From contig JAOUMY010000002.1 in NCBI GenBank assembly GCA_029881255.1, positions 434,001 through 498,000 of the forward strand: a stretch of DNA of 64,000 nt. The letters are read 5' to 3'. Below, one piece after another: positions 49,350 through 52,464 of this stretch (position 1 is its first letter; each line of letters opens with the position of its first letter). The notes beneath the pieces were generated by a model. It was not told the origin of the DNA and did not search any database. It worked only from the letters and a program-made list of their open reading frames with translations. Both the position numbers and the translations under genes were made by a program. The stretch comes from Gammaproteobacteria bacterium (GTDB lineage: Bacteria > Pseudomonadota > Gammaproteobacteria > S012-40).

Positions 49350-50729
49350 TTAGCCTAACATGATTTCGGTCAGAAATGGCACCTCAGCGGCGACGTTGTC
49401 TTTGACTATCGCCTGCATCAGTGTGTCAAGATCCATGTCATAGGATTGGAGAATTTCACGGACGGATACGGGTACTTCGGAGAAATCTTTGCGGAGATTG
49501 GCGCACACAAATCGCGCCAGCCTAAAACAATGCAGATAAGCAATATTCTCGCTGGTTACCGGAATGTCAGAAGATTCACATACCGCAATGCAGGCTTGCG
49601 GAAGATTCCAGGCTTGCAACACGTGAACCGTCACCTGTTCAGGCCGGATTCCCATCAAACCGTCTTCAAGTTCTGGTAATGGCGTTTCGGGCATACCACT
49701 GACGATATGATTGAGAACCGAATACTCACGGGGAAAAAGATGCGCCAGCGTCAAATATCCAATGCTATGCAAAAGACCCGCAAGAAAACTCATCCCTGCC
49801 GTTACCCGTTTCCGCAAAGGCGTGTGCAAGGCGATGTATCGCGATACGATGGCCTCTGAAAGAGAGCTTTCCCATATCGCTTTGACGCCCACTCGTCCTT
49901 CATGTGGCGCGTGAAACTGATGGGAAAACAACATCGCCAGCGCGACGTTAACTGAATCGTCATAACCGATAACGCGGTAAATCGCATCGAATACACTATT
50001 CACATCACCTTGAAACGAATAATGTGCCGAACGCGCCAGAGACACTATGCGCGCCGAGAGTGCCTGATCCTGTTCAACGATTTCCACCAATTCATCAATG
50101 CCTGCCTCATCATTTCCCAATAGACGCAATAGTTGGTGCACAATGCCCGGCATTACTGGTAATGACTTTACCTGCTTTAATTGCGACAATACTTCTGTCT
50201 CTGCAAAAAGCTGGTTACTGTCCCGCGTCGTATCGACATCACTAAGCAAGTGATGAGTCGCCATATCGTCCGATTCCCCGACGGAGTTATCGACTTTTTG
50301 CCTATGCGCAAATGCAAAACCCTTTTTTCCTGGAAACAAGGAGGAAAAGTATTGCGCATCGACACGCACCACATGTTCCCCATCGACTATAAATTCCAGA
50401 AAAGGCCAACTAAACAGACAGCTTTCCACCAGGGTAGGAATATTCCACAGCACGCCTAATGGTGGAACAGAAGTTGTTCCCAGCGTTTGGCTATAACGTG
50501 CGATGCATTCCTGCGTAGCAAAGTCGAGTTTCCGATGCGTAATTTTTCGAATGGCATTGAGATCGATATTGGAATCTTTTGGATAGGCGCTAATTACCAG
50601 CCCTTGCGTGTCACACAATAGGCGTGTATCAATCCGGTATTGGCACTCCTGGTCACCAGCGTACTTAACGACGGAATAATTGATTTTTTGTTTTTGAAAA
50701 TATTGTAATACTTCACCAATAGTCGACAT
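49350..50729 (-). CDS. HDOD-domain protein with YbaK/aaRS-editing-like N-terminal domain
   Basis: This 459-residue cytoplasmic protein begins with a domain (about residues 1-150) whose layout recalls YbaK/EbsC deacylases: YFQKQKINYSVVKY, GLVISAYPKDSNIDLNAIRKIT, LDFATQECIARYSQTLGTTSVPPLG. The second half (about 185-420) is an HDOD domain (VKSLPVMPGIVHQLLRLL... IVEQDQALSARIVSLARSA... GLLHSIGYLTLAHLFP). That fold resembles HD phosphohydrolases but usually lacks catalysis and works in signalling. It is the last gene of a leftward set with the DUF2934 and LpxC-like genes. Ligand unknown. The 247-base gap downstream shows no gene. Confidence 0.8.
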   Translation of the reverse strand: MSTIGEVLQYFQKQKINYSVVKYAGDQECQYRIDTRLLCDTQGLVISAYPKDSNIDLNAIRKITHRKLDFATQECIARYSQTLGTTSVPPLGVLWNIPTLVESCLFSWPFLEFIVDGEHVVRVDAQYFSSLFPGKKGFAFAHRQKVDNSVGESDDMATHHLLSDVDTTRDSNQLFAETEVLSQLKQVKSLPVMPGIVHQLLRLLGNDEAGIDELVEIVEQDQALSARIVSLARSAHYSFQGDVNSVFDAIYRVIGYDDSVNVALAMLFSHQFHAPHEGRVGVKAIWESSLSEAIVSRYIALHTPLRKRVTAGMSFLAGLLHSIGYLTLAHLFPREYSVLNHIVSGMPETPLPELEDGLMGIRPEQVTVHVLQAWNLPQACIAVCESSDIPVTSENIAYLHCFRLARFVCANLRKDFSEVPVSVREILQSYDMDLDTLMQAIVKDNVAAEVPFLTEIMLG

Positions 50730-50813: not shown

Positions 50814-51053
50814 TCAGGCACCAATCAAATGATTGATCTCTTGCTCAGCTTCAATCCAATCCTGTTCCGGGCTGCCATTGGCAAATTCACGGCCCATAGC
50901 CTTGAAATACGCCGCCTCTCGGATCATTTGTTGGCGCTTATCATCGTCTACTTCAACATTAGGCTTCGTAATCCTGCTCGTTGCCCGTGGCTTGGTAGTC
51001 GTTGTCTGGCGTGTCGCCTTTACTGTTTTACCGCGCGGTTTGACTGAGGTCAC
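50814..51053 (-). CDS. DUF2934 small protein
   Basis: This 79-residue protein has a basic Thr/Lys-rich N-terminus (about 1-35) and a C-terminal DUF2934-like helix pair: RQQMIREAAYFKAMGREFANGSPEQDWIEAEQEI. DUF2934 proteins are common small proteins of unknown function in Proteobacteria. It lies between the LpxC-like gene (75 bases upstream) and the HDOD gene (84 bases downstream), all on the minus strand. AGGAGG-like sequence (AAGGAGGG) is just upstream of the start. Confidence 0.75.
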   Translation of the reverse strand: MTSVKPRGKTVKATRQTTTTKPRATSRITKPNVEVDDDKRQQMIREAAYFKAMGREFANGSPEQDWIEAEQEINHLIGA

Positions 51054-51128: not shown

Positions 51129-51959
51129 TTAAATTGCACGTATTCTGTCGCGACGGTCCACGTCGTCAACATTTTCACTACCACTCGTCAGATCGCGAAG
51201 CACTGATAAATGCAGTGACATATCCGCATCAAACGCCGTGTAACAACCGTCGAACCAGGTATAGGTCAGTGAAAGCGCTGACAATACCCGTACGACCATG
51301 TGATTTAGCTGGGATCTCTGAGCAACATTGCGCATGTTCCGCGCTGCCTGCTCACTGAATCTTGCATTACTGATATCAACATCAGCCACATCCTGCGCAT
51401 GACTGAGCTCACTGACAAATACGGCTGGTGACACATCGACAACCGCGCTGGAACGATGCACAGATGCTGCGGATTCACCCAAGGTATTGATACAGGCGAC
51501 GCGCAGGCCATTAAAGCTATTGATACGAACCCAACTGTTATTCCGCTTTTTCAATAGCGATTCTTGAAATCTTATCTGCGGCAATTCGGCGCATTGTTCT
51601 TTAAAGCCCGCTGCACGCAGCAAGAATAGAAATCCAGCGGCACTGCTCGTCAGGCGTGGTAAACAATCACCATCTACGTCAACATACAGATTGCAAACCC
51701 CCATCGCGTAACAGGTGGCCAATAAATGTTCAACATCTGCCATCGTTTGTCCATGATCGGTCAAAACCAGGTGATTGTTTTCTACAGTCGCCGTATTCAA
51801 ACCCGCACGTATTTGAATGGGTTTACCAGAATTTGTCTTGCCTCGGAAAATTATGCCGGTGTTTTCAGGCGCGGGTGAAAGACGCATATTAATTGTCTCC
51901 CCGCCATCGCGTCCTCGTCCGCGGGCCTTTATGGTATTCACTATTGTTTTTTGTCTCAT
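51129..51959 (-). CDS. LpxC-like protein lacking key catalytic residues (probable pseudoenzyme)
   Basis: This 276-residue protein lines up along its length with LpxC, the zinc deacetylase committing lipid A synthesis. Shared stretches are RQKTIVNTIKARGRG, RLSPAPENTGIIFR, VEHLLATCYAMGVCNLYVDV and SSAAGFLFLLRAAG. Glu77-His78 (general base and zinc ligand) and His220 (second zinc ligand) remain. The third ligand Asp (E. coli Asp242) is replaced by Arg224, the conserved GxGLHxG motif reads GRGRDGG, and the C-terminal catalytic GHALNN motif is missing. The start has AGGA seven bases upstream and the frame is intact, so it is probably expressed with a non-catalytic role. The true lpxC should lie elsewhere with ftsZ. 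Homology is read by eye. Confidence 0.72.
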   Translation of the reverse strand: MRQKTIVNTIKARGRGRDGGETINMRLSPAPENTGIIFRGKTNSGKPIQIRAGLNTATVENNHLVLTDHGQTMADVEHLLATCYAMGVCNLYVDVDGDCLPRLTSSAAGFLFLLRAAGFKEQCAELPQIRFQESLLKKRNNSWVRINSFNGLRVACINTLGESAASVHRSSAVVDVSPAVFVSELSHAQDVADVDISNARFSEQAARNMRNVAQRSQLNHMVVRVLSALSLTYTWFDGCYTAFDADMSLHLSVLRDLTSGSENVDDVDRRDRIRAI

Positions 51960-52143
51960 GGATGAATCCTTTTTTTACTGGCGATCACCTGACAAGCTCT
52001 ATAGAATTGGCCCTGCCCGGCGATAATATTGCCAAAGGCACGCTATGATCTGCAGAAAACACCTAATATAGAATGTTTGTTTCGACAGCGTCGCAGATAA
52101 CCTTAAGCTAAAAATTGAATTTCAAATTGAAAGAGCAAAATCT

Positions 52144-52464
52144 ATGCTAGATAGCAAACACTGCGTACCTTGCCGTGGCGGCATCCCCCCTCTTGAGGAA
52201 GAACAGGCGCAATCTTTGCTCAAACAAGTACCTAAGTGGGCTTTGATCGATAATGCCACCAAGATTAGACGACGTTTCGCGTTTGACAACTTCGCTGAAA
52301 GTCTGGCGTTCGTGAACAAAGTCGGACAAATTGCAGAAGACGAGGGTCATCATCCTGACATCACCTTCGGTTGGGGATATGCTGAGGTCATTATCTATTC
52401 TCATAAAATTGGCGGTTTGCACGAAAATGATTTTATTCTCGCCCATGCAATTGATAAATTGTAG
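52144..52464 (+). CDS. phhB: 4a-hydroxytetrahydrobiopterin dehydratase (pterin-4a-carbinolamine dehydratase)
   Basis: This 106-residue enzyme dehydrates 4a-hydroxytetrahydropterin, recycling cofactor for phenylalanine hydroxylase; many bacteria carry it without that enzyme. The N-terminus CVPCRGGIPPLEEEQA and the active-site GHHPDITFGWGYAEVIIYSHKIGGLHENDFILA (catalytic His pair in GHHPD and a third His) are typical. It is divergent from the LpxC-like gene across a 184-base gap. No phhA is present in the window. Confidence 0.93.
   Translation: MLDSKHCVPCRGGIPPLEEEQAQSLLKQVPKWALIDNATKIRRRFAFDNFAESLAFVNKVGQIAEDEGHHPDITFGWGYAEVIIYSHKIGGLHENDFILAHAIDKL

Follow-up and report, generated by a model that had tools for sequence, protein, structure and literature searches.

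The gene lpxC*, which lies on the minus strand at positions 51129 to 51959 of the window (the whole 64,000-nucleotide stretch of bacterial DNA analysed here), probably encodes an LpxC-derived pseudoenzyme of 276 residues that would serve as a non-catalytic folded binding module. This reading draws on the homology of the product to LpxC, its predicted fold, the loss of catalytic residues and of Insertion II, a locus common to the orthologues, their open frames and a coexisting canonical lpxC. LpxC, the UDP-3-O-acyl-N-acetylglucosamine deacetylase, is a drug target; it catalyses the step that commits the cell to lipid A synthesis and that is under tight regulation. Among pseudoenzymes generally, a dead paralogue regulates or scaffolds its active relative, and the lpxC* product resembles them in that the fold appears intact, the catalytic residues are lost and an active paralogue is present in the same genome.

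The frame of lpxC* runs from 51959 down to 51129 over 276 codons without interruption; the strand, which the preliminary description did not give, is established here. Upstream of the ATG, AAAAAAAGGATTCATCC (51961 to 51976, minus strand) represents an AGGA-type ribosome-binding site. The Pfam LpxC model (PF03331) scored the product at 97.8 bits, where its cut-off is 27 (E 1e-27), most strongly over residues 3-189, and the profile-profile comparison with LpxC extended over 251 columns at a probability of 100%. The near full-length similarity to LpxC, the open frame and the good ribosome site that had been described before were thus all recovered. Considering that the NCBIfam lpxC equivalog model gave 81 bits, under its cut-off of 187, the product is a relative of LpxC and not an ordinary LpxC. 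The canonical gene was found elsewhere in the source genome, immediately after ftsZ, and scored 376.8 bits.

To compare folds, we used a model of the lpxC* product predicted from nine rows, namely the window protein and LpxC proteins from the loci compared here, canonical rows included (pLDDT 78, pTM 0.81). The model superimposed on the two-domain fold of LpxC structures with Z scores of 28-33 and rmsd values of 2.1-3.0 over 240-259 aligned residues, and the nearest unrelated fold reached a Z score of 5.7. The earlier proposal that the fold was kept is therefore consistent with the prediction. When folded as a single sequence, the protein gave a pLDDT of only 33, so that the model depends in part on the LpxC rows. 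The lpxC* product shares with LpxC the two-domain fold, about 27% identity over its length and the structural motifs of domain I, but differs in that the zinc site is incomplete, Thr191 and the general-acid His are gone, the Insertion II region is mostly missing and the gene does not adjoin ftsZ.

In LpxC, the zinc ligands are H79, H238 and D242, residues E78, T191 and H265 are critical, and the acyl chain runs in a tunnel formed by the helix of Insertion II (review, PMC13333357). Residue equivalences, given in E. coli LpxC numbering, were taken from a MAFFT alignment and from the profile-profile comparison, and both returned the residue reading of the preliminary description. The window protein retains Glu77-His78 (E. 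coli E78-H79) within the former zinc and base motif VEHLLA (V76-A81, codons at 51717 to 51734, minus strand, coordinates here and below from the ORF), as well as His220 (E. coli H238, the zinc His of HKILD). The latter belongs to HMVVRV (H220-V225, 51285 to 51302, minus strand), the former HKxxD motif, where Arg224 occupies the position of the zinc ligand D242. In addition, GxGLHxG reads GRGRDGG, Thr191 is replaced by Asp, and GHALNN has become DMSLHL with Met in place of the general acid His265. The active site is thus dismantled, as had been proposed. What is left of the Insertion II region, residues 190-219 (51303 to 51392, minus strand), falls short of its counterpart in canonical LpxC by 17 residues, as counted from F181 to the former zinc His.

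A second, low-scoring LpxC copy was detected by LpxC searches in 6 of 13 genomes of the family, namely the window genome, G005, G006, G007, G008 and G012. The carriers span five genera, with five other species in four other genera besides the window genome. All six copies occupy one locus between HDOD/hemH and dnaQ/rnhA; when gene order was read as far as each contig extends, HDOD followed by GGDEF and/or hemH stood on one side, and phhB/nhaD and/or dnaQ-rnhA on the other. In a maximum-likelihood tree, the five intact copies formed one group with support of 100/99, subject to a long-branch warning, and their branch point among the canonical copies is blurred because of the long branches. The shared locus gives independent support for the group. 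The five intact copies show 23-31% mutual identity and on average 24-30% identity to canonical LpxC, and the canonical copies of the family have a mean mutual identity of 75%. In G001, G002, G004 and G011 the block is intact and lacks lpxC*, and the contigs of G003 and G010 stop short of the spot. Since at least four relatives with an intact block are without the gene, it is dispensable across the family, whose species tree is too weak for counting losses.

In the sample of 369 genomes from the class, the other second LpxC copies were either full-length and catalytic-looking or fragments and did not belong to the lpxC* family, of which rare members may exist elsewhere. The window protein as query found no relative among the genome contigs or the viral contigs, the five-row lpxC* alignment contained no stretch conserved enough for searching, and none of 80 loci found with the neighbour NhaD as query carried lpxC*. 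Separately, several families of the class possess an additional full-length LpxC that falls in a distinct clade and has its motifs intact (L068-L072, L076). G224, from another family of the class, has two full-length LpxC copies and also an ORF for LpxC domain I only (L077, 1252-1932, plus strand), which stops after about 145 residues, reads GRFDG for GLHxG and retains EH. Viral contigs ranging from 5 to 215 kb in length carry canonical LpxC with intact GLH, EH, HKxxD and GHxLN motifs (L164 at 911-1747, L166 at 1501-2430, L167 at 1501-2412, L169, L170 and L175); in the group of L167, L169 and L170 it is followed by a zinc-peptidase-like ORF. These viral copies are possibly phage-borne lipid A genes.

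We then considered the neighbourhood of lpxC*. Downstream by 75 bp and on the same strand lies a gene for a small DUF2934 protein (50814 to 51053, Pfam PF11154), which adjoins lpxC* also in G007 and G008. It is followed on the same strand by the gene of an HDOD-domain protein (49350 to 50729, PF08668), co-directional in the orthologous loci. A pterin-4a-carbinolamine dehydratase gene assigned by Pfam (52144 to 52464, plus strand) is the divergent neighbour and serves as a synteny marker. The HDOD gene, at 20-35% identity to the window copy, diverges far faster than hemH, dnaQ and nhaD (50-78%), and its product has an unassigned domain of some 180 residues at the N terminus. No LPS genes were found beside lpxC*, where the neighbours are signalling and housekeeping genes, and a promoter and terminator scan stayed at chance level.

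The chief alternative is that the LpxC fold was recruited outside lipid A, for an unrelated signalling or stress function shared with the DUF2934 and HDOD proteins that are encoded in the same direction. It would agree with the six loci, in which the neighbours lie on the same strand and the next gene is some 30-130 bp away, and with an HDOD gene that is fast-evolving like lpxC* itself. However, HDOD keeps its syntenic place in G001, G002, G004 and G011, all of which are without lpxC*, and no fusion was seen. We regard such a recruitment as possible, at somewhat less than one chance in three.

In terms of known regulation, LapB binds and controls LpxC, as MurA does in Pseudomonas (PMC13333357, PMC9995270). 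In our searches, LapB-length zinc-ribbon proteins of about 380-390 residues were present in 11 of 13 family genomes, the source genome included, and the YejM domain (DUF3413) exceeded its cut-off in none of the 13. From these counts one could propose that the lpxC* product occupies LapB and so takes the place of the antiadaptor YejM, which is missing. However, YejM is also missing in genomes without lpxC*, and G012 has lpxC* yet no LapB match. Since the presence of lpxC* tracks neither YejM nor LapB, this reading is weakened, and we consider it improbable.

To determine whether the residues retained in the window protein represent a remnant site, we compared the five intact copies. The E78-H79 pair reads EH, EK, TP, VP and EP, with EH in the window copy only, and the equivalent of H238 is H, H, F, Y and F, so that a single orthologue keeps this His besides the window copy. 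None of the five has kept the equivalent of D242 (the zinc Asp whose fate across orthologues had been left to check), of T191 or of H265, and a full zinc site is found in none. As the orthologues do not keep them, Glu77, His78 and His220 of the window protein do not amount to a conserved site left over from LpxC. A divergent active enzyme, which would use these three residues with another ligand on another substrate, could appeal to the Glu base and two His kept in the window protein. It is nevertheless very unlikely, given that the E-H pair varies, H238 is F or Y in three copies, and Thr191, Asp242 and His265 have no equivalent in any intact copy. The distance from F181 to the former zinc His is 39 residues in the window copy and 28, 35, 24 and 30 in the others, compared with 56 in canonical LpxC, which corresponds to a loss of 17-32 residues in the stretch holding Insertion II in all five. 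In contrast with these losses, Q4, G15, P30, A31, G36, L79, L80, N90, P101, L113, G118, F181, L248 and G255 (canonical numbering) are invariant in canonical and dead copies alike, and from the alignment they look structural.

The lpxC* gene is kept as protein-coding in most carriers. Simulated neutral decay, started from the canonical gene with amino-acid identity targets and no indels, left 1 of 400 genes stop-free at 32% identity and 0 of 400 at 24% identity. Considering that the lpxC* frames are open at 23-31% mutual identity, neutral decay would not account for them. Comparison of G012 with G005 across 187 codons gave a dN/dS of 0.22, equal to that of the adjacent HDOD gene, dS being almost saturated. 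In G005 the final third of the copy seems to be shifted in frame, as a result of decay or of an assembly error. A decaying pseudogene without product would fit the rapid divergence, the frameshift in G005 and the absence from several relatives, but with five open frames that simulated decay would almost never leave, a dN/dS of about 0.2 and a ribosome site, it is the least credible of the readings considered here, and the gene appears to be maintained, not debris, as the preliminary description had held.

Taken all together, the results favour an LpxC-derived pseudoenzyme. In the proposed course of events, an lpxC copy would have been fixed, most simply once, in a probably gammaproteobacterial family, at the spot flanked by the HDOD/hemH and dnaQ blocks. 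Loss of its zinc site and of its acyl-chain tunnel would have followed, with the two-domain LpxC scaffold retained under purifying selection. From the residues and the established enzymology of LpxC, we infer that catalysis has been lost, and the protein should not deacetylate UDP-3-O-acyl-GlcNAc. A binding role is likewise what we infer for the product. The earlier suggestion that it binds an acyl-UDP-sugar is disfavoured, as the acyl tunnel has gone as well, with the Insertion II region shortened in every intact orthologue. Since what is left is the scaffold, a protein-binding role is likeliest. We found no LpxC pseudoenzyme in the open literature, subscription papers being outside the scope of the search. 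The lpxC* genes are new as a syntenic family, which extends the pseudoenzyme reading beyond a single genome.

That lpxC* takes part in controlling lipid A is plausible, though unproven. Its partner may be one that it has in common with canonical LpxC, for example the adaptor LapB, or MurA; the likeliest single guess, at about one chance in three, is competition for such an LpxC-handling protein, through which the pseudoenzyme would tune lipid A synthesis. Tentatively, and with slightly less confidence, a dedicated pseudoenzyme might regulate canonical LpxC, as a decoy for the adaptor or protease or as a modulator of the coupling to MurA, which would be an undescribed layer of control in a family without detectable YejM. 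The lpxC* product would resemble LapB, YejM, FtsH and MurA only in this proposed level of action, the control of LpxC through protein binding, and differs from them in that, to our knowledge, none of these regulators is an LpxC homologue. If lpxC* is a dead but maintained paralogue of LpxC, it would show which LpxC surfaces are needed for protein contacts alone, and it could point to an additional regulator in bacteria with LapB and no detectable YejM.
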